From assembly GCA_019429465.1 (NCBI GenBank), contig JAHYIV010000010.1:1-64000 (forward strand): 64,000 nt of DNA, read 5' to 3'. The position numbers were made by a program, and so were the translations under genes. Below, piece by piece: positions 11,943-53,198 of the stretch (the first letter of the stretch is position 1; each line of letters opens with the position of its first letter). A model generated the notes under the pieces. It saw nothing but the letters and a program-made list of their open reading frames with translations. It was not told where the DNA came from and did no database searches. This stretch comes from Desulfoarculaceae bacterium (lineage in GTDB: Bacteria > Desulfobacterota > Desulfobulbia > Desulfobulbales > Desulfocapsaceae).

Positions 11943-12542
11943 TCAGACAAAACTCACTCTGGCACGGCCATTGGCCTTGGCATGATAGAGGATATCATCT
12001 ACCCTTTCCATCCATGCGTCAAGTTCCTCATCTTTTGTCCACTGGGCAAGACCTATGGAGACCCCAAGTTTTGTTTCACTGTCAGCCCAGACCTCCAGTT
12101 TATCAATGGCCAGACACATTCTTTCTGCCAGGATCCTGGCGTTTTGCTGATCAGTATCATCCATAACCAGCAAGAATTCGTCCCCGCCCATCCTGACCAG
12201 GAGATCCGTTGAACGTATCGCCTCGGCCATCACCACTGCTACCTGCCGCAGCACCTGATCACCACGCTGATGGCCCAGGATATCATTAATCTGCTTAAAT
12301 CGATCCAGATCCATGGAGGCCATGGTCAATGGACGGCCAGATCGTCTGGCACTGTCCATCTTTAACTTGATCTGCTCATCAAAGACCCGACGGTTGGCAA
12401 TACCGGTCAAGGCATCGCGCCGCGCACTTGTAAAAAGTTCTTCATACTCAAGGGCTCGGTGAAGATACTCACCCAGGACGAACAGCGACTCATTGACCCA
12501 ACCAATCTCCCCGGAGTCCATGGCTCGTGCGCCTTTCAGCAC
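11943..12542 (-). CDS. GGDEF diguanylate cyclase domain (C-terminal part of an interrupted gene)
   Basis: A 199-codon reading containing a complete GGDEF domain: RRDALTGIANRRVFDEQI, DLDRFKQINDILGHQRGD, and the active-site loop MGGDEFLLV, normally making cyclic di-GMP from GTP. The first codon here is GTG, two codons after an in-frame amber codon (TAG, 12549-12551) that ends the reading frame at 12549-12950. The joined protein reads ETVDDGG-stop-LLVLKG, which looks like a beta-strand with the stop in place of tyrosine. I therefore regard this as the 3' half of a gene broken by one point mutation. Expression from the GTG would need an internal ribosome site, and I see none. Confidence 0.8.
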   Translation of the reverse strand: MLKGARAMDSGEIGWVNESLFVLGEYLHRALEYEELFTSARRDALTGIANRRVFDEQIKLKMDSARRSGRPLTMASMDLDRFKQINDILGHQRGDQVLRQVAVVMAEAIRSTDLLVRMGGDEFLLVMDDTDQQNARILAERMCLAIDKLEVWADSETKLGVSIGLAQWTKDEELDAWMERVDDILYHAKANGRARVSFV

Positions 12543-12548
12543 CAGTAG

Positions 12549-12950
12549 CTATCCCCCATCATCAACTGTTTCCATCAGCCATTTATGGGCATAATGACCA
12601 TCTTCACTGACTGCTGCATCGAGATCCTTATCGTCCATCAACTGCTCGGCGAAGGCGATCAAGTTGCGCCTCAATGGGCCATGACCTGAACAGAACAGAT
12701 GTTTTTTACTGCGAATCGTATTACTGTATCCTATAAGTTCATGCTCGACATGAGGCATCAACCAGACCGAGTAGGCCTCAATCATGCCGGCAAGATCAAG
12801 AACAGCGGCTAAACGAAGATGAAGTTTATTGATCAGGCCCAGTCGCTCTGTTTGCCGCCTCAGGTGATCAAGCTCAGCCATCACGGGATCAACCGCAGCC
12901 AGTGCCATATCGTTCAAGGTATCTGAGTCTATCGACATTGAAATGGTCAT
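12549..12950 (-). CDS. N-terminal sensor part of the interrupted GGDEF gene
   Basis: A 133-residue reading starting at the ATG at 12950 behind GAGGAAGTGATA; an upstream ATG at 13007 lacks a ribosome site. It is helical at first (residues 15-60, HLRRQTERLGLINKLHLRL), then a GAF-like sensor section with LFCSGHGPLRRNLIAF. It ends at TAG in the same frame as the GGDEF domain that follows. Together the two parts make a 334-residue sensor plus diguanylate cyclase. What the sensor binds is unknown. Confidence 0.7.
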   Translation of the reverse strand: MTISMSIDSDTLNDMALAAVDPVMAELDHLRRQTERLGLINKLHLRLAAVLDLAGMIEAYSVWLMPHVEHELIGYSNTIRSKKHLFCSGHGPLRRNLIAFAEQLMDDKDLDAAVSEDGHYAHKWLMETVDDGG

Positions 12951-16287: not shown

Positions 16288-18276
16288 TTATTTCACGCCA
16301 TGCTCACGCAGAAAAGAGGTGTATTTTTTATCTGTCCCCTGGATATGCTTGACCAGCCACTCCTTGAGAAAGGTCATGAGCTCCATGGAAAGCATGGCGT
16401 CCCCGGCCTTGAATTTTTTCTGAATATCCACCACCTGGGCCACCAGCTTCCGATGAAGTTCGGCATGGATCTTCTCCTCGGGATAGCCAAACTGGGCAAA
16501 GAGCTTTTCTTCGACGGCAAAATGACTGGCAGTATAGTCGACCAGCCGATCAAGGATCGTACCCATCGCACTGTTGCTCTTTTTTAATTTCATGGCCTTG
16601 TGCAGCTCATTGATCATCCCCACCAGCTTCTTGTGCTGGTCGTCAATCAGCTTGATATTCACGCTCAGGTTGGCACTCCAGGGCATGAGATCCGCGACCT
16701 GGGAGGAAGCGGTCGGAGTGGCGGACGCCATCGGTCTTGACACTGACGTTGCTGCCTTTCTGACCCCGGCCTCACCGCCAGCCGAACCCGGAGCCATTCT
16801 GAAATGGGCCACCAGGTTTTTAAGAGTCTCCGCCACATCGGCCAACTCCCGGGCACTTCCCTCTACATCCTGACCACTCTTGGAAAGGGAGCGGGAAACA
16901 TTACTGACCTCGGTAATATCGCCGGCGATCTGAGCTGCCACCATGGAACTCTGGGCCACATTTTCATTGACCTCACTGATCCCCTGAGCCGCCTGCAAAA
17001 CGCTTTCAGCAATCTCGGAAGTCGTGGCAGTCTGCTCCTCAACAGACTGGGCGATATCGGCCACAATCCCGTTCATCTGACTGATAACCCTGGTAATCTG
17101 CTCGATCTCACTGACCGTCTCGTTGGTTGACCCCTGAATAGACTCAATCCTGGCCTTGATCTCTCCGGTTGCCGCCGCCGTCTGCTTGGCGAGTTCCTTG
17201 ATCTCATTGGCCACTACAGCAAAACATTTGCCTGCCTCCCCGGCGCGGGCCGCCTCAATGGTGGCATTCAAGGCCAGCAGATTGGTCTGATCCGAGATCT
17301 CGGTAATGGCCTCGGTAACCTTGCTGATCTCATGGGCCGCCCGTCCCAGAGCCCCGACCTTTTCTGTAGAACTTTGGGCCAGGAGCAGGGCGCCATTGGT
17401 AATCTCTTTGGCCTGCTCTGTTTTGGCGGCAATCTGATGAATCGTTGAGCTGATCTCTTCGGCCGCCGAGGCCACGATATTGACATTGGTAGCGGCCTGT
17501 TCACTAGCTGCGGCCACCGAGTTCATATTGGCGCTCATCTCTTCTGTGGCCGCAGCCACTGAAGCCGACAGCTCCGCCGAGTCGCCGGCCCCAGCCGACA
17601 GACTATGCGAGGTCTCGGACAACTCATGGGAAGAGGAGGCAAGGGTTACCACCTCTGCCCCGATACCACCAATAATATGGCGCCACTGCTCAACCGTGAC
17701 TGTCAGAGCTCGGGCCAGGTCGCCAAGCTCATCCTGCTGACCGACATCAAGCCTGACATCGAGATCGCCCTGGGCAAGTTTTTCGGTAAAGGTCACCATC
17801 TTTTTCAGGCTGCCGGTGATCAAGCGGAAGATATTGAAACCGAAGGAAATACCAATCACCAGCGCCAGACCCGTCATCAGCATGATGATCCGAATGGCAT
17901 TACGTGCCTCCTCTCGGGTGTGTTCATTTACATCTTTCAACACCTGATCAAGATGTTCTCCCGCCTTATTCAATATCCCGGAGACCTGATGTAAGGCCAC
18001 TTCTGATTTCGTCTGAAAGACATCCTGCATGGCGGGCAAGGCCTGCTCTTTATCTCCCGCCTTGGCCTGAATCTGCTGCATTTCGGCCACCGAGGCATGC
18101 AACTGGGCATGGGGGGCTTCAAGCTCTCTCAGTATCTGGGCCAATTCCGGATAGTCATGTTCCACAACTTTGCGGTCTTCGCCATAAAGCCATTGGCCCA
18201 ATTTGCATTTATGGTCATCTGTCTCCAGCTCCAGGGTGGCAATGGAGGCATCCTGGAAAAAGGTACTGATCTTCAC
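16288..18276 (-). CDS. Methyl-accepting chemotaxis protein fused to bacteriohemerythrin (5' end broken)
   Basis: The open part encodes 662 residues. It begins with a zinc-binding-type CZB-like helical segment (DHKCKLGQWLYGE) and a membrane helix at about 126-148 (IRIIMLMTGLALVIGI). A HAMP domain (LITGSLKKMVTFTEKLAQGD) follows, then a long MCP signalling coiled coil with the hairpin tip EISDQTNLLALNATIEAARAG. At the C-terminus is a bacteriohemerythrin domain of about 130 residues carrying the di-iron ligands in DDQHKKLVGMIN, HFAVEEKLF, HAELHRKLV and HIQGTD. Such fusions sense oxygen and steer motility. Two in-frame stops lie upstream (18280-18282 and 18454-18456), so the natural first membrane helix is separated. 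A short protein could start at the GTG at 18276 but has no ribosome site. Confidence 0.88.
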   Translation of the reverse strand: MKISTFFQDASIATLELETDDHKCKLGQWLYGEDRKVVEHDYPELAQILRELEAPHAQLHASVAEMQQIQAKAGDKEQALPAMQDVFQTKSEVALHQVSGILNKAGEHLDQVLKDVNEHTREEARNAIRIIMLMTGLALVIGISFGFNIFRLITGSLKKMVTFTEKLAQGDLDVRLDVGQQDELGDLARALTVTVEQWRHIIGGIGAEVVTLASSSHELSETSHSLSAGAGDSAELSASVAAATEEMSANMNSVAAASEQAATNVNIVASAAEEISSTIHQIAAKTEQAKEITNGALLLAQSSTEKVGALGRAAHEISKVTEAITEISDQTNLLALNATIEAARAGEAGKCFAVVANEIKELAKQTAAATGEIKARIESIQGSTNETVSEIEQITRVISQMNGIVADIAQSVEEQTATTSEIAESVLQAAQGISEVNENVAQSSMVAAQIAGDITEVSNVSRSLSKSGQDVEGSARELADVAETLKNLVAHFRMAPGSAGGEAGVRKAATSVSRPMASATPTASSQVADLMPWSANLSVNIKLIDDQHKKLVGMINELHKAMKLKKSNSAMGTILDRLVDYTASHFAVEEKLFAQFGYPEEKIHAELHRKLVAQVVDIQKKFKAGDAMLSMELMTFLKEWLVKHIQGTDKKYTSFLREHGVK

Positions 18277-18471
18277 GGCTTAACGGAGATAATCGACCTC
18301 ACGCTTGGCTAGCGCGACATTGATTTCATTGGCGGACAGAACCTGGTCCATGTCGGAACCCATCTGGGATACCTTGAGGAGCCCGACACCACCGATCGCA
18401 GTTGTCAGCAGCAAGACAACACCACAGACCACACCTATTTTTATTCCAATCGGTCAATTCTTCCAGTTCAT
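18277..18471 (-). pseudogene. Detached N-terminus of the hemerythrin chemoreceptor
   Basis: In the same frame as the chemoreceptor. An ATG at 18471 has a strong AGGAGAAGGGA ribosome site. The reading is MNWKN, stop (TGA), PIGIKIGVVCGVVLLLTTAI (the missing first membrane helix), then about 30 residues, stop (TAA), and straight into AVKISTFFQD of the downstream frame. No frameshift is needed. Restored, the protein is 727 residues, normal for a receptor. The two stops need separate mutations. Confidence 0.82.
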
Positions 18472-27713: not shown

Positions 27714-28013
27714 CTAAATAAATTCTGCCATTGCCTCTTTCAATGAGGCCGCGTAAAAAGGCTTCTGAATAATCTTGTTTACTCCGGCGGCATATTCTGC
27801 CTTGTTATCCTGGGCCTCATTCTGGGTGGTAACCATAATCACCGGCAAATCCGCGGCAGAATATTTTTTCCGTATCCTTTCCGTCAAACCTACCCCGGTA
27901 ATTTCAGGCATATTCAGATCAGTCAAGACCATGGCGGGTTTCTCTTTCTCAAGCCACTCAAGGGCCGATGCCGGAAATTCAAACAGGACCGGTTCATACC
28001 CCAGTTCATGCAA
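27714..28013 (-). pseudogene. C-terminal receiver fragment of the HEAT-repeat/receiver gene
   Basis: A 99-codon reading containing most of a response-regulator receiver domain: MHELGYEPVLFEFPASAL, VLTDLNMPEITGVGLTERI (phospho-acceptor D), VIMVTTQ, and the lysine region KIIQKPFYAAS. It continues in another frame the receiver that starts VVAVDDSRMILNI at the end of 27923-29194. The two frames join if one TC of a TCTC run near 28030 is removed, giving VDDSRMILNIYKATLHELGY. This indicates a dinucleotide duplication that broke the gene. Confidence 0.85.
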
Positions 28014-29194
28014 GGTAGCCTTGTAGAGATATTGAGAATCATCCGAGAATCATCTACCGCCACCACTTTTCGTTTAACGGATACCTCTTCCGTACCCACC
28101 AGAAGTCTGGCAAAATCATCCATCCCGCTATTTTTCAACAATTCTTGGTAATGTTTCCTGATATCCTGATGGGCATGAGGAAGATAGACCATGGCCATTT
28201 CCTGAAAATAGGGTTCGCCGGCCAGACTCATAAAAATCTTATCAACTTGACCATTGACGATGATCTTAGTGATATTGTGGGCATCGTCATCTTTTTCCAT
28301 CAACAGATTCTTAACACCTGCCACCATGATCTCTGAATAATTACGTTCTATAGCCCTGGCAGCGGCAATACAGACATGATCTTCCTTATCCGTCAGCCCA
28401 ACGGTCAGGGTATAGGCCCCTTTTCGCAAGGGCAGGAGGGCAAGCGTCTCATACGCCGCAAAACGAACGTTGGCACTCTTTTGATCACGCCCCAACATCT
28501 TTCTGATCGGCATAATTGCCGACTCATCGCCGATATCACCCAGGACATTCAAGGTATGAATCTGGAAATCCGGATCATCAACCAAAAGATTCTCCATAAG
28601 AATGGGAACCGCCTTGGCGCCGATACGGATAATCTCCTGCTTGGCATAGGTACGAATATGGGCATAATGGGAACGCAGGGTTTCATTCAATTTTTCCAGG
28701 GAGACCTGATCCTGCACATCGGCAAAGATGGAGAGAATCATGAAATCACGCTCATTATCCGTTCCCATCCGTTCAGCCAGTCTATGCATGGCAGTCGGCG
28801 TCCCAACCTGGCCAAGTGCCTGCACTGCCGCGATAATCAGATCCTGGTTGGCGGCATAAAGATAATCAGTCAGGACATTAATGGTCTCAGGATCTCCAAT
28901 CAAACCAAGAGTCTCAAGAACAAGTTTGATCTCCGCTTCATCCTGGGAGCCGGCAACCAGATTCATCAAGGCCTGAGTTGAATCATCAGAACGAAGCTCT
29001 CCTGCCAGCTGAATCAGATACTGTTTCCCCTTGATTTTCGGCAGTTCAGCGGCCAGCTCGGGTTGATCAGCAAGCAGATAAAGGAGCAAAGGGATAGAGA
29101 ATGACACTTCACCCCTGGTAAGCTCATAGAGCAAACGATTCTGTGTCTTTTTATCCACCTCACCTAAATGAGAAAGGACCAGTTGCGCCTTCAT
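27923..29194 (-). CDS. HEAT-repeat protein with (frameshifted) receiver domain
   Basis: A 423-codon frame, minus strand. Residues about 1-360 are HEAT-like alpha-helical repeats with the usual two-helix pattern (EIKLVLETLGLIGDPETINV, IIAAVQALGQVGTPTAMHRL, FQIHTLNVLGDIGDESAIMP, and VRFAAYETLALLPLRKGAYT). Residues about 378-391 begin a receiver (KRKVVAVDDSRMIL) that runs out of frame at about residue 393; the true remainder is at 27714-28013. Upstream too the frame is broken: the natural start is probably ATG 29261 (MVELRTQHMIEEIRDNIK), rejoined to AMKAQLVLSHL by removing one T of the six at 29206-29211. So the gene carries two frameshifts and is probably inactive or phase-variable. Confidence 0.75.
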   Translation of the reverse strand: MKAQLVLSHLGEVDKKTQNRLLYELTRGEVSFSIPLLLYLLADQPELAAELPKIKGKQYLIQLAGELRSDDSTQALMNLVAGSQDEAEIKLVLETLGLIGDPETINVLTDYLYAANQDLIIAAVQALGQVGTPTAMHRLAERMGTDNERDFMILSIFADVQDQVSLEKLNETLRSHYAHIRTYAKQEIIRIGAKAVPILMENLLVDDPDFQIHTLNVLGDIGDESAIMPIRKMLGRDQKSANVRFAAYETLALLPLRKGAYTLTVGLTDKEDHVCIAAARAIERNYSEIMVAGVKNLLMEKDDDAHNITKIIVNGQVDKIFMSLAGEPYFQEMAMVYLPHAHQDIRKHYQELLKNSGMDDFARLLVGTEEVSVKRKVVAVDDSRMILNISTRLPCMNWGMNRSCLNFRHRPLSGLRKRNPPWS

Positions 29195-29358
29195 GGCATC
29201 GCCGGTTTTTTATATTATCCCGAATCTCTTCAATCATGTGCTGGGTTCTTAATTCAACCATATCATCCCGTCCAATGTTTTTTTTATTACCTGAATCCTG
29301 CAATCATCCAGCATTCGGGTATTAATCAATAACGTTACAGAGCTGTTTACCAAGAAAT

Positions 29359-34977: not shown

Positions 34978-36204
34978 TCAGTTTGCCTTTTTACGAAGAT
35001 AGGTCGGAGTCTCAAGGTAATCTTCATTCCAGGATCGGGCCTCCTTCTGATTGCGCGCGGCCTCTTTACGGCCTCCGGAGACACCGAGATCATCAAAACC
35101 TTCAAAGTTCGATTGCAGCAGCGGGGTCACAAAGGCGGGACGCGGATTCGTCGGAGCCGGCGCTGCCGGGGCCTCCTGGGTGCTTGTCATTTTTACTGAC
35201 TTGCGCGATTCCTCAAGCAAACCGATCGGTTCATTTTTTTTGACCACATTGCCTATTCCCGTTGCAATAACAGTGACACGCAGCTCATCGCCAAGCGTTT
35301 CATCATAGAGGACACCAAGGACAATTTTTGCGTCCTCATCCACCTTGCTTTGAATAAGGGCTGAAACCTCCATATACTCAGCCAGGGTCAAGCTCTCTTC
35401 CGTTCCCGAGATATTGATAATGAGACCACGAGCCCCATCGATCCCCGTATCTTCCAGGAGTTGATTATCAATGGCCCGCTTGGCTGCCTCTGTCGCCCTG
35501 GTTTCACCAACGGCCGCACCAGAGCCCATGATGGCTGGCCCCACTTCCTTCATCACCGCCCGCAGATCAGCAAAATCAGCATTGATCATCCCGGGAACAT
35601 TGATCAGGTCCGTAAGTCCCTTGACCGCCTGCAGCAGGACGAGATCGGCCATGACGAACATGTCGGCGAGCCTGTTGTTTTTCTGCATCAACGAGAGAAG
35701 CCGGTCATTGGGAACGGTAATGATGGCATCCACATATTTCCGCAGCTCATCCCAACCGGCTTCCGCCGTGCGCATTCGCGCCTTGCCTTCAAAATGAAAC
35801 GGCTTGGTCACCACTGCCACAGTGAGGGCACCCAGCTCTTTAGCCACCTTGGCGACAACAGGGGCGGCGCCTGTTCCGGTTCCGCCGCCAAGCCCTGCCG
35901 CGACAAAGACCATGTCGCTCCCCTTGAGGGCCTTCTTGAGCTCCTCCAAGGACTCATGAGCGGCCTGGGCTCCGATATCAGGATCCATGCCAGCGCCCAG
36001 GCCCTTGGTGATACTGGGACCAATCTGCAGGCAGAAATCCGCACGAGACTTTTGCAGATCCTGCTTATCCGTATTGGCCACAATAAACTCAACGCCCTGC
36101 AGCTTATTGTGCACCATGGTGTTTACGGCATTGCCGCCGCCACCACCGACACCAATAACCTTTACTATCGCCACACCTTCTGTCTCCGCCATTCTAAACG
36201 GCAT
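34978..36204 (-). CDS. ftsZ: Cell-division protein FtsZ
   Basis: A 408-residue tubulin-like GTPase forming the cytokinetic ring. Signatures seen: [17 protein letters not shown] at the N-terminus, the tubulin motif [13 protein letters not shown], the T7 loop [11 protein letters not shown], and a conserved C-terminal peptide [13 protein letters not shown] that binds FtsA. The C-terminal linker is short. The ATG at 36204 follows AGGGGTGAGATT. Last gene of the dcw cluster. Length is typical. Confidence 0.98.
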
Positions 36205-37588: not shown

Positions 37589-38683
37589 TCAACCCGATCC
37601 ACTGTGTGCCACCAGCACCTTATTTTCCAGATAATCCATACGAATATACGCGACATCCGCGATAGTCATTCCCTGAGCTGTATCCTTATATAAAATTTCC
37701 AGTACCCTTTTCAAACGACTATATTTTGTTCTGACCTCTCCCTTACCAAAATAAACAGGGAAGGGATGATCAGCCAGATAGAGAGTCATTCCAGCATCCC
37801 GGTCAACATGAATCTCAGAAAGATTCTGGATCGGCAGGTTAGGATTATTCTGCCTGATAAGCTTAAGAAAGGCCAGAGGTTCATGGAGCATCTCCTGCAT
37901 AGGCACTGCATTGCTCCCGTCATCCCTGCCTCGCACGGGCACAGGCCGTCCCGGGCCGTCGCCGCCTTTTACCTCAAGGCCGGTTATGACCGGAAAATCC
38001 ATATCCTGCCCCGGTTCAACCGGGGCAAACACCACCCCGTCCTTATCCAGATAAAAAAACTTCTGGCTGCCGGAAACCTCTTGAAGGATCAAGGCCTCAG
38101 CCACATGCTCCTTAATCGAGATCACAAGCACATCGGGCCAATCACGTTTGACCTCAGCCGCTGATATCCTGGGGTGAGCCCTGACAATCGCCTCAATATG
38201 TGCAGGATTCAAGGTCACCAGGCTGCTCTGATACCTTATCCCGGCAAGTTCACGAATCAGGGAGGGCGTGGTTATCCGACAACCGGTAATGGTGATTTCC
38301 CGGATTTTGAAAAGATTCAGCCCAGAGACAACATTCACCAACGGGCCCTGTACCGCAAAGACTAAAGAGGCGGCGAAAGCCAGAAGCCCTGCCGGAACCA
38401 GCAGGGCCCTGGTCCTGTTTTTTGGCGGCAATGGAGTTCGCGTCCACTCCTGACGCCGACCGAGGGCACCCTGGTGTCGCTCACGAAAGAGTGAGCGCCT
38501 GGCAGAGCTCTGAAACCAGGAGCCTATCCTGCTGAGCAGCCCGACCCGTTTCTCTCTCTGAGCGGCAGACCTGGAAGTAAACACAGGTTGACTCCCACGA
38601 CCAGCAACGCTGGCACGCTCACTTCTCTTTTTTTTCTTTTTCAGAAGAAAAAAAGAGCTAATTTTCTTTAGAGCGTTCAACAC
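37589..38683 (-). CDS. ftsQ: Cell-division protein FtsQ
   Basis: A 364-residue bitopic protein. A long basic cytoplasmic N-terminus of about 90 residues (KKKKKRSERA) precedes one membrane helix at about 94-114 (LLVPAGLLAFAASLVFAVQG). Then comes a POTRA domain (FKIREITITGCRITTPSLIR) and the FtsQ beta domain (KRDWPDVLVISIKEHVAEAL). Start is GTG. A stretch near residues 225-250 (GGDGPGRPVPVRGRDDGSN) comes from the short mobile repeat at 37915-37960 and lengthens a loop before the C-terminal half. Confidence 0.9.
   Translation of the reverse strand: MLNALKKISSFFLLKKKKKRSERASVAGRGSQPVFTSRSAAQREKRVGLLSRIGSWFQSSARRSLFRERHQGALGRRQEWTRTPLPPKNRTRALLVPAGLLAFAASLVFAVQGPLVNVVSGLNLFKIREITITGCRITTPSLIRELAGIRYQSSLVTLNPAHIEAIVRAHPRISAAEVKRDWPDVLVISIKEHVAEALILQEVSGSQKFFYLDKDGVVFAPVEPGQDMDFPVITGLEVKGGDGPGRPVPVRGRDDGSNAVPMQEMLHEPLAFLKLIRQNNPNLPIQNLSEIHVDRDAGMTLYLADHPFPVYFGKGEVRTKYSRLKRVLEILYKDTAQGMTIADVAYIRMDYLENKVLVAHSGSG
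37915..37960 (+). repeat. 54-bp family short repeat inside ftsQ
   Basis: TCCCGTCATCCCTGCCTCGC followed by ACAGGCCGTCCCGGGCCGTC. It is similar to the CCA-enzyme copies and is read in the opposite strand as GDGPGRPVPVRGRDDGS. Confidence 0.65.
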
Positions 38684-38784
38684 TCAACCAACTCCAAATC
38701 CTTTATGAGACATCATTGAACCTTCAGAAGTTGTTCCGCAAAAACCATTATCTTCCCAACCGTTTCGCCAGGATTCACGATGAC

Positions 38785-41322: not shown

Positions 41323-42435
41323 TTATTTATTGCTTCCGTTCATTATTTCCAGACAGCTATCGACGATCCTGTCCGCGGCATCAGGACGACCCAGAGTCCG
41401 CATGGCCACAGCCATCTCCGCCATCCTTCCTCGATCCCCGGCAAGACCGGCCAGGGTTTCAGCCAGTTTCCCAGCCGTCAGTTCCCGCTCCACCAGGACC
41501 ACAGCCCCGCCACTATCGGCATAATAACAACCGTTCCTGTATTGATGATCATCAGCGGCAAAGGGATAAGGGATCAGCACAGCAGGTTTCCCAAGGACTG
41601 CCAGCTCGGCGAGGGTTGTGGCACCTGCCCTTGAAACCAGCAAATCGCATTTCCCATAGACCTCTGCCATGTCGGTAAAAAAAGCGGCCACCGTCGCATG
41701 AACCCCGGCCTGCTCATAGGCCACCTTCACCATCTCCTCATCGGCAGCACCGGTCTGATGGATAACCTCTATTCCAGGTGGCAGCAAGCTCCCATAACGG
41801 GTCAAGGCCTCTATCACCATTTCATTGACCCGGTGCGCACCCAGGCTGCCTCCGAGTACCAGAATCGTCAGCTTTTCATCTCTTTTCTCAGGTGATACCT
41901 TGGCCAGTTCCAGGATCTGGCGACGCACAGGATTACCGGTCAGCACCGTTTTTCCTACCGGAAAAAAGACCTCACTGCCCGGCAGAGAAAGACAAATTCT
42001 GGTGGCCAATTGCCCTAATTTTCTATTGGCCAGCCCCGGCACGGAATTCTGTTCATGAATCAGCGTCGGCCGCCCCAGGATCCTGGCCGCAGCCACCACC
42101 GGTCCGGTCACATAACCGCCAACCCCCACCACCAGATGCGGCCGGAAGCGGATGATATGCCAGAGGGCCTCGACAAAGGAAACAGGAAGGAGAAGAAGGG
42201 CCTGAGCCAGAGCCAACACCCCCTTGCCTTTTAACCCCTGACAATGGATCCCCCTGGTACTGAAACCATAGTGAGCAAGGCTGACCTTATCCATCTTCCG
42301 CCTGGTCCCCACAAAGAGGACCTGGGTCCCGGGAAAACGCCGACAAAAGGCCTCGGCCGTGGCGATGGCCGGAAAGAGATGCCCACCTGTCCCGCCGCCG
42401 GTAAGCAACAGCCGCAGGGGTTGCCTCTTGCCCAT
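41323..42435 (-). CDS. murG: UDP-GlcNAc:MurNAc-pentapeptide-undecaprenol GlcNAc transferase
   Basis: A 370-residue GT-B glycosyltransferase, peripheral on the inner membrane, that makes lipid II from lipid I. The N-terminal motif RLLLTGGGTGGHLFPAIATA is a classic MurG G-loop, followed by GVGGYVTGPVV and LIHEQNSVPGLANR. The donor site has LGGSLGAHRVNEMV, and SRAGATTLAELAVLGKPAVLIPYPFA is the C-terminal signature. The start overlaps the murD stop by TGATG, leaving no room for ftsW. Confidence 0.97.
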   Translation of the reverse strand: MGKRQPLRLLLTGGGTGGHLFPAIATAEAFCRRFPGTQVLFVGTRRKMDKVSLAHYGFSTRGIHCQGLKGKGVLALAQALLLLPVSFVEALWHIIRFRPHLVVGVGGYVTGPVVAAARILGRPTLIHEQNSVPGLANRKLGQLATRICLSLPGSEVFFPVGKTVLTGNPVRRQILELAKVSPEKRDEKLTILVLGGSLGAHRVNEMVIEALTRYGSLLPPGIEVIHQTGAADEEMVKVAYEQAGVHATVAAFFTDMAEVYGKCDLLVSRAGATTLAELAVLGKPAVLIPYPFAADDHQYRNGCYYADSGGAVVLVERELTAGKLAETLAGLAGDRGRMAEMAVAMRTLGRPDAADRIVDSCLEIMNGSNK

Positions 42436-43952
42436 CAGACACTACCACCCTTGCCACCGGCGGCAACGGCAACGGCCAGGGACGCTCTGATCACCTTCTG
42501 CGCGGCAGCGGCAAAGACATTGCCCCGATGACCATAGTTGTCGAACATATCAAAACTGGAGCAGGCTGGCGAGAGCAGGACCGTATCCCCTGCCCGGGCC
42601 AGCTCAGATGCCAGCATGACCGCCTCCTCCATTGACTCTGCCCGGTGCATCTCGGTCATCCCGGCCAGGGCCTGGGCAATCAGCTCCGTGGCCTCACCAA
42701 TCAGGATAAGACAGCGCACCTTTCCAGCCACACTCTCTTTAAGCAGGGTATAATCATCTCCCTTGTCCCGCCCCCCGGCAATAAGAATCACATTGCCGCT
42801 AAAACTGGCAAGGGCGCTGAGAACAGCCCCGGTATTGGTAGCCTTGGAATCATCATAATAGGAGACCCCGTCACCCTCTCCAACCCACGCCATTCGATGC
42901 GGTGCCACCTGAAAAGCGGCCAGACCCTGCACTATCGCCTCCCGGGCACACCCAAGGCTGCGGGCGGCAAGGATGGCCGAGGCGCCGTTCAAGAGACCGG
43001 TGGCATTGTCCAGCATAGACCCCGCCAGGTCATACACCTCTTCTTTGCCCTGCCACGCAAGGACAACACCATATCCATCAATCCGCGCCTGACAGTCCGC
43101 TCCATGTCCAAAAAGACGCCACCGCTGACATCGCTCTGCCACCATCCCAGGCTCCAGCGTCACCGGCCCATCCATGGCCCGCACCCCGAGTTCTGCCGAC
43201 AAGGCTCGACAGAGCTGGTCGTCACCACCGAGGATCGCCGTATCATTCTGCCCCTGGCCGGAAAAGATCTTCATCTTGGCTGCGACATAACCCGCCATGC
43301 TGCCATGGCGATCCAGATGATCCGGGGTCACATTGAGCAGGATCGCCACATCTGCCTTAAAGGCCCCTGCCGCTTCCAGCTGAAAACTTGAAAGTTCAAG
43401 CACCAGCACATCCACATCTTCAGGATTACTCAGATAATCAAAGAGCGAAGTGCCGATATTGCCGCCGACAAAGACCTTTTTCCCGGCCTGCTGCAGCAAC
43501 TTGCCGATCAGGGCGGTCACCGTGGTCTTGCCATTGGTGCCCGTGATCGCCACTACTGGTTTAGACAGCAGCGGCGCCGCCATGGCCAATTCACCCAGCA
43601 CCGGGATGCCGAGGGCGCGAAGCTCCTGCAGGATCTCCAGATCCTGGCTGATTCCGGGGCTGACCAGGACCTGATCGGCTCGCCTGAGAAATGCCAGGGT
43701 ATGGCCCCCGCATTCATACTCTACTCCCTGCTCTGCCAGAAAGTCCAGATCTGCGACGGCCAGGGACGGCCTGAGGCCATGGGAGCCAGGGCTGGCGGAA
43801 GCAGCCGCCGGCAGGTGCGGACTGTCCCTGGTATCAGAAACCAGCACTCTCATTCCCTGCGACAGCAGATAACGCACAGCCGCCCGACCGGAGACCCCCA
43901 GTCCCATCACTGCCACGCAGCCATCAGCTGTTATTTTATTATGAGCTCTCAT
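42435..43952 (-). CDS. murD: UDP-N-acetylmuramoyl-L-alanine--D-glutamate ligase
   Basis: A 505-residue Mur ligase, longer than the usual about 440-460. It starts VMGLGVSGRAAVRYLL, with P-loop VVAITGTNGKTTVTALIGKL, then LNVTPDHLDRHGSM, YYDDSKATNTGAV and LIAGGRDKG; LLSPACSSFDMFDNYGHRG is typical. Two stretches come from the short mobile repeat: SPGSHGLRPSLAVAD in the N-terminal domain and AMDGPVTLEPGM in the middle. Both lie in loops. Adds D-glutamate to UDP-MurNAc-L-Ala. Confidence 0.95.
   Translation of the reverse strand: MRAHNKITADGCVAVMGLGVSGRAAVRYLLSQGMRVLVSDTRDSPHLPAAASASPGSHGLRPSLAVADLDFLAEQGVEYECGGHTLAFLRRADQVLVSPGISQDLEILQELRALGIPVLGELAMAAPLLSKPVVAITGTNGKTTVTALIGKLLQQAGKKVFVGGNIGTSLFDYLSNPEDVDVLVLELSSFQLEAAGAFKADVAILLNVTPDHLDRHGSMAGYVAAKMKIFSGQGQNDTAILGGDDQLCRALSAELGVRAMDGPVTLEPGMVAERCQRWRLFGHGADCQARIDGYGVVLAWQGKEEVYDLAGSMLDNATGLLNGASAILAARSLGCAREAIVQGLAAFQVAPHRMAWVGEGDGVSYYDDSKATNTGAVLSALASFSGNVILIAGGRDKGDDYTLLKESVAGKVRCLILIGEATELIAQALAGMTEMHRAESMEEAVMLASELARAGDTVLLSPACSSFDMFDNYGHRGNVFAAAAQKVIRASLAVAVAAGGKGGSV
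43133..43182 (+). repeat. 54-bp family short repeat inside murD (central site)
   Basis: CTGCCACCATCCCAGGCTCC...GGCCCATCCATGGCCCGC. Translated on the minus strand it gives AMDGPVTLEPGMVAER, like AMDGPVSRTPRTAQER of the histidine kinase. Confidence 0.7.
43755..43803 (-). repeat. 54-bp family short repeat inside murD (N-terminal site)
   Basis: Reads ASASPGSHGLRPSLAVAD on the coding strand. The nucleotide pattern CCTGGCTCCCATGG...AGGCCGTCCCTGGCCGTC is nearly that of the CCA-enzyme copies. Confidence 0.8.
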
Positions 43953-52637: not shown

Positions 52638-53107
52638 CAGAAGATCCCCAATCTGGCCAGACTCTCCTGGTAGTTTCCAAAGTTATCACGGGTGGCCTGA
52701 TTCTCGAGACTCCAGGCCTCTTTGTCCCAGATCTCTACATAATCCAGCATCCCGGTCAGAACCACATCCTTGACAATTCCCGTCTCGCTGCGCAGTGAGG
52801 GAGGAAGCAGCACTCGACCCTGCTTATCAGGAAGACAGGGCGTGACCCCGGAGACCACCAGCCGGATAAAACTGGTCAGCCCCGGTTGGTCACGACCATT
52901 GGTCAACAACTTATTTTCCAGAATCTCCCATTGAGACACAGGGAAGGCGCGAAGATGGTTACCCCAGCTGGTCAGCATCAGCTCTTCAGAATCATAGCGA
53001 GCGAGGACATCCCTGAACCTGCTAGGGATATTCAATCGTCCTTTGATATCGAGCGCGTGTTCCGACCGGCCGCGAAATCTTCTGCCTGTTACATTGCTGT
53101 TTTCCAT
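52637..53107 (-). CDS. mraZ: Transcriptional regulator MraZ
   Basis: A 156-residue protein with two SpoVT/AbrB-type swapped-hairpin domains. The first has FRGRSEHALDIKGRLNIPSRFRD; the second VTPCLPDKQGRVLLPPSLRSE. The DxK/RGR motif is present in both. It is a repressor of the dcw operon that binds tandem boxes, which lie just upstream (53117-53160). First gene of the cluster. Confidence 0.96.
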   Translation of the reverse strand: MENSNVTGRRFRGRSEHALDIKGRLNIPSRFRDVLARYDSEELMLTSWGNHLRAFPVSQWEILENKLLTNGRDQPGLTSFIRLVVSGVTPCLPDKQGRVLLPPSLRSETGIVKDVVLTGMLDYVEIWDKEAWSLENQATRDNFGNYQESLARLGIF

Positions 53108-53110
53108 GAC

Positions 53111-53160
53111 CTCCCGCCACCATCTTCCACTACGCGCCCCTCTTCACCACTTTACGCCAC
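53111..53160 (-). promoter_or_regulatory. MraZ operator: five GTGG boxes spaced exactly 10 bp
   Basis: On the minus strand, AGTGGCGTAA, AGTGGTGAAG, AGGGGCGCGT, AGTGGAAGAT and GGTGGCGGGA follow one another without gap. The conserved G-rich core lies at plus-strand 53117-53120, 53127-53130, 53137-53140, 53147-53150 and 53157-53160. It sits between the promoter and the mraZ start, as expected for MraZ autoregulation; known cases have three or four boxes. Confidence 0.88.
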
Positions 53161-53170
53161 TACTTATCCT

Positions 53171-53198
53171 TTTATAGCAGGTCGAACTCACTTGTCAA
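53171..53198 (-). promoter_or_regulatory. Sigma-70-type promoter of the dcw operon
   Basis: On the minus strand TTGACA (53193-53198), 16-base spacer, TATAAA (53171-53176). Perfect -35. It lies about 10 bases upstream of the MraZ boxes. Confidence 0.85.

Follow-up and report, generated by a model that had tools for sequence, protein, structure and literature searches.

The window, by which we mean the whole stretch of 64,000 nucleotides that was analysed, carries on its minus strand a chemoreceptor frame that opens with an ATG at 18471 (18469-18471) and spans 16288-18471. A preliminary description had delimited the segment 18277-18471 exactly but left the strand unstated. Decoded from 18471 to 18277, this segment gives five residues up to a first stop, then 57 residues up to a second stop, and one residue more. 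The first stop is a TGA at codon 6 (18454-18456) and the second a TAA at codon 64 (18280-18282); past the TAA the same frame enters, without a shift, a 662-codon open reading frame (ORF) whose listed start is a GTG at 18276 (18274-18276). The well-placed ribosome-binding site that had been proposed for the original start is an AGGAG at 18482-18478, 6 bases ahead of the ATG. Between both stops lies a hydrophobic stretch (codons 9-32, 18376-18447) that probably forms the first transmembrane helix (TM1), and reading through the stops would indeed restore it.

This interrupted frame is not a product of chance, since 22 to 47 of its 63 sense codons match the ortholog in each of ten congeners and the DNA upstream of the ATG, ribosome site included, is very similar to that of one ortholog (genome G001). 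In an alignment with the congeneric orthologs we found no indel within 18277-18471. The host assembly (94.8% complete, 0.27% contamination, 72 contigs) was compared with 16 congeneric species, and 10 of these possess a receptor ortholog including the N-terminus, with 63-81% identity (77% over residues 1-570 in G001). In all ten the ATG aligns with an ATG, the position of the first stop is TGG (Trp), and that of the second is TTT in nine and CTT in one. The comparison with intact relatives that had been called for thus places sense codons at both sites in 10/10 congeners, and disabling lesions that orthologs lack are a mark of a pseudogene. Four family-level relatives that could be aligned as well, giving 14 aligned relatives altogether, have I, I, L and M at the site of the first stop and W at that of the second. 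The best ten named records with a receptor ortholog are all metagenome assemblies, nine of them labelled Desulfobulbaceae, Desulfocapsaceae or Desulfocapsa and one only Proteobacteria. The G001 receptor (L054 3363-5045) stops at 560 residues with no hemerythrin domain, of which its 9-kb contig yielded no credible remnant.

Read through both stops, the receptor would comprise 727 residues. Domain profiles place a CZB domain at residues 62-130 (18082-18288; Pfam PF13682), a HAMP domain at 216-260 (17692-17826; PF00672), an MCP signalling domain at 370-510 (16942-17364; PF00015) and a C-terminal hemerythrin domain at 606-717 (16321-16656; PF01814 and NCBIfam NF033749); a second membrane helix (TM2) is predicted between CZB and HAMP. 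The signalling domain scores 106.5 bits against a cut-off of 34.6, with one invariant Gly lost, and both hemerythrin profiles exceed their cut-offs. The intact open frame including TM1 that a hemerythrin-MCP requires is missing here owing to the TGA at codon 6 and the TAA at codon 64. As far as the available text of PMC9388753 describes it, DcrH of Desulfovibrio vulgaris is built alike, with a periplasmic part between two membrane helices, HAMP, an MCP domain and a C-terminal hemerythrin, whereas the receptor analysed here carries a CZB domain between the helices and is broken.

Besides the stops, two further changes affect the domains themselves. Codon 416, in the AGKGFAVVA motif, reads TGT (Cys, 17224-17226) in place of a Gly that is invariant in 14/14 aligned relatives; we take this position to be the hairpin tip of the MCP signalling domain. 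Codon 61 reads TAT (Tyr, 18289-18291) in place of a His that is likewise invariant in all 14 and that aligns with position 1 of the CZB profile, as mapped on the G001 copy. CZB domains hold a zinc core of three His and one Cys, according to the available text of PMC8262984, and by this comparison His61 would be a zinc ligand. The core is incomplete in our receptor, in which the first His is Tyr and Cys89 and the later His are kept, if the ligands are assigned by position. In the retained Cys and later His it resembles CZB chemoreceptors and diguanylate cyclases of the TlpD/DgcZ type, but it differs from these, as far as they are described there, in the lost first His and in the location of the CZB domain between two predicted membrane helices (PMC8262984). 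Altogether, nine columns that do not vary among the other congeners carry a private change here; these include the first stop and the substitutions His61 to Tyr and Gly416 to Cys. The other ten congeners have 1-10 such changes (10 in G014, 9 in G001), so that those of our receptor stand out by kind alone and not by number. A rise in rate over the whole gene was not observed either, as pairwise pN/pS was 0.22-0.29 with this genome and 0.22-0.35 in the other tested pairs. We therefore dropped rate as evidence of relaxation, because neither measure singles out the receptor; the evidence consists of the lesions and the company of other broken genes. The lack of a rate rise implies that relaxation and decay are recent.

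As a control, we compared the window beyond its first 7.7 kb with a contig of G014, 38 of whose reference ORFs (37 genes) had matches of at least 50% identity, from 7754 to 62357. Three of the 37 genes are broken, namely the receptor, a GGDEF gene and a gene for a HEAT-repeat and receiver protein (HEAT-receiver), all of them signalling genes. The remaining 34, including POR and MurG, have no stop or frame change inside the gene, counting as open three genes that align over just 86-90% of the reference. Comparison with relatives located an in-frame TAG at 12551-12549 in the GGDEF gene (11946-12950, minus strand). The HEAT-receiver gene (27717-29261, minus strand) has frame changes near 29208 and 28030, one of which sits at a run of A, as well as an in-frame 24-residue gap relative to both G014 and G016. 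Apparent stops in MurG (41326-42450), in an FtsQ-like gene (37592-38695) and in a gene at 52640-53191 were rejected, as they resulted from over-long N-termini of the references. A two-piece match of POR was also discarded as a lesion, since the split belongs to the reference; in G014 the POR gene lies in two frames (L142 8621-12150; G014:C2 48621-52150), perhaps through a sequence error there.

The partner system of the receptor is encoded elsewhere in the genome and is damaged too, which is a further feature of a pseudogene. All four matches to the CheW domain lie in one cluster on contig C50, and the single H-kinase_dim match of the genome is the CheA of the same cluster; no other CheA was found in the assembly by either domain. 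This CheA aligns as three pieces in changing frames and the alignment contains six stops, the first at codon 2 and part of the remaining ones in a stretch read out of frame. All 12 congeners that have this CheA encode it in a single open frame of 945-973 aa. The adjoining CheW, CheB and CheR genes are open. Another gene beside this cluster aligned in two pieces, in one frame and with 74% coverage, and we did not score it as broken.

On the flagellar contig C59 we matched 25 of 30 listed G014 reference ORFs, the other five falling beyond the contig end. Seven flagellar genes are clearly broken. Frame changes disrupt fliK, fliR and flhB, a single stop interrupts each of fliP and the sigma-28 gene, and flgE has a stop together with an internal deletion. 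Only about 50 N-terminal residues of flgF are left, in two frames, beside a group II intron on the opposite strand. The intron (RF02003; C59, L132 12600-14251) carries a reverse transcriptase. The flgA gene is probably broken as well, though its proximity to the contig end kept us from treating this as certain. The G014 counterparts of these genes are open, except flgA, which aligned in two frames. Many other flagellar genes of the host are still open, for instance those of FliM and FlhA. Only two MCP-domain matches were found, compared with 6-16 in the eight flagellated congeners that are at least 90% complete; the second host MCP, of 771 aa, is open. Flagellin had no match in the host assembly, a result that is uninformative and was not taken as a loss because C59 ends at 36169, before the flagellin site of relatives. 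Likewise, flags on FliN-like and FlhG-like genes of G010 were rejected as lesions, as they lie in variable or over-long N-termini.

We then related these genes to the presence of flagella in the genus. FliM and flagellin are both matched in 12/16 congeners, and neither is matched in G007 (63% complete), G008, G011 (55% complete) and G015. The receptor ortholog occurs in 10/12 flagellated congeners, being missing in G013 (59% complete) and G005, and in 0/4 non-flagellated ones. G005 is flagellated and 96% complete, and consequently the receptor is not needed for the flagellum. Orthologs of the GGDEF gene and of the HEAT-receiver gene were each found in 11/12 flagellated congeners (all but G013, and counting a HEAT-receiver copy that G004 carries in two parts at two contig ends) and in 0/4 non-flagellated ones. 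For the association with flagella Fisher's test gave p = 0.003, or 0.02 when restricted to the ten congeners with a completeness of 90% or more, values that are rough because the genomes are related. When the corresponding block of G015 was compared with 22 reference genes of G016, a count that drops rows unmatched in any of the three genomes, three genes and no others lacked a match, namely those of the receptor, the GGDEF protein and the HEAT-receiver protein. The neighbours of the HEAT-receiver gene are retained in G008, with the gene itself absent between them; the receptor site could not be compared there, as the match ends beyond pabB. A 678-aa gene of G016 (L147/L146; G016:C26, 37856-39892 of the stretch starting at 100001) is present in G015, and no good match to it was found in the window (26% identity). 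A FastTree tree of a single gene (the C-terminal 726 residues of POR from 15 of 17 genomes, with G007 and G013 excluded and G004 partial) groups our genome with the flagellated G002, G016 and G006 (support 0.95) and G008 with the flagellated G004 (support 1.00), whereas the placement of G015 was not resolved. As this genome and G008 each stand beside flagellated congeners, their two losses appear to be separate.

One might argue that translation restarts at the GTG at 18276 or at another internal start and that a shortened receptor without TM1 is in use. The 662 downstream codons are open and include the CZB, HAMP, MCP and hemerythrin domains, and the gene overall still looks constrained. Nevertheless, inspection of the bases immediately preceding the GTG revealed no clear ribosome site. 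Moreover, a product starting there would have the beginning of its CZB domain cut off, the first CZB His is changed, the signalling domain has lost its Gly, and the only CheA found is broken. We therefore regard a functional restart as improbable; it would in any case be compatible with decay of the remaining pathway.

It is still less probable that the stops were introduced into an intact gene by an error in sequencing, assembly or binning. The genome is a 72-contig assembly, and the frame change of the HEAT-receiver gene at the run of A could be seen as a sign of such errors. On the other hand, the lesions of the receptor are substitutions and not indels, the breakage is concentrated in signalling and flagellar genes while 34/37 compared window genes are open, and the same three genes of the window are unmatched in the G015 block. 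In addition, the ending of flgF after about 50 residues beside an intron of the opposite strand is not a type of error. Relaxed selection, which the preliminary description had preferred to sequencing error, hence remains the best reading, given the two lost invariant residues and the breakage of CheA and at least seven flagellar genes. Recoding of the stops, with TGA read as selenocysteine or tryptophan and TAA read through, has a negligible probability even though congeners have tryptophan at the TGA site, because TGA ends 14 and TAA 10 of 27 checked conserved window genes and both therefore work as stops, Cys is found at the TGA site in 0/14 aligned relatives, and the TAA at codon 64 would require a second mechanism.

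The locus is thus very probably a chemoreceptor pseudogene that decays as its lineage loses flagellar chemotaxis. This reading builds on the lesions, the open frames in relatives and the same genes being broken or absent in non-flagellated relatives. Translation from the original start would end after five residues, and a full receptor with both membrane helices would consequently not be made. In a lineage that is losing flagellar chemotaxis, with breakage also in the only CheA found, in flagellar genes for the sigma factor, the hook and export, and in two other signalling genes, little selection for the receptor would be left. The cause of relaxed selection lies outside the window. We infer that the cell is non-motile and that motility was lost before or together with the appearance of the receptor lesions. 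In kind the case is ordinary; it is one piece of a recent and unfinished loss of flagellar chemotaxis.

Going further, we lean slightly towards the view that this genome marks a halfway point in the loss of flagellar chemotaxis and that the GGDEF and HEAT-receiver proteins belong, so far unrecognised, to the motility system of the genus. As a pointer to a place of both genes in the motility system, the co-decay is a modest lead, and it provides a testable prediction of function for the two unassigned signalling genes. Furthermore, the genome, which comes from an uncultured group, appears to stand at an intermediate stage on the way to losing motility. As its relatives are either intact or have finished the loss, the order of gene decay should be readable.

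A literature search turned up nothing on this locus or on decaying motility genes in the group, which is not to say that nothing has been published. A loss of motility functions has been described for evolved Campylobacter jejuni in the available text of PMC7677240. Our case resembles it in that respect but differs, as far as that text goes, in that the genes are broken by stops, frame changes, a deletion and an intron and in that it concerns an uncultured lineage related to Desulfocapsa.
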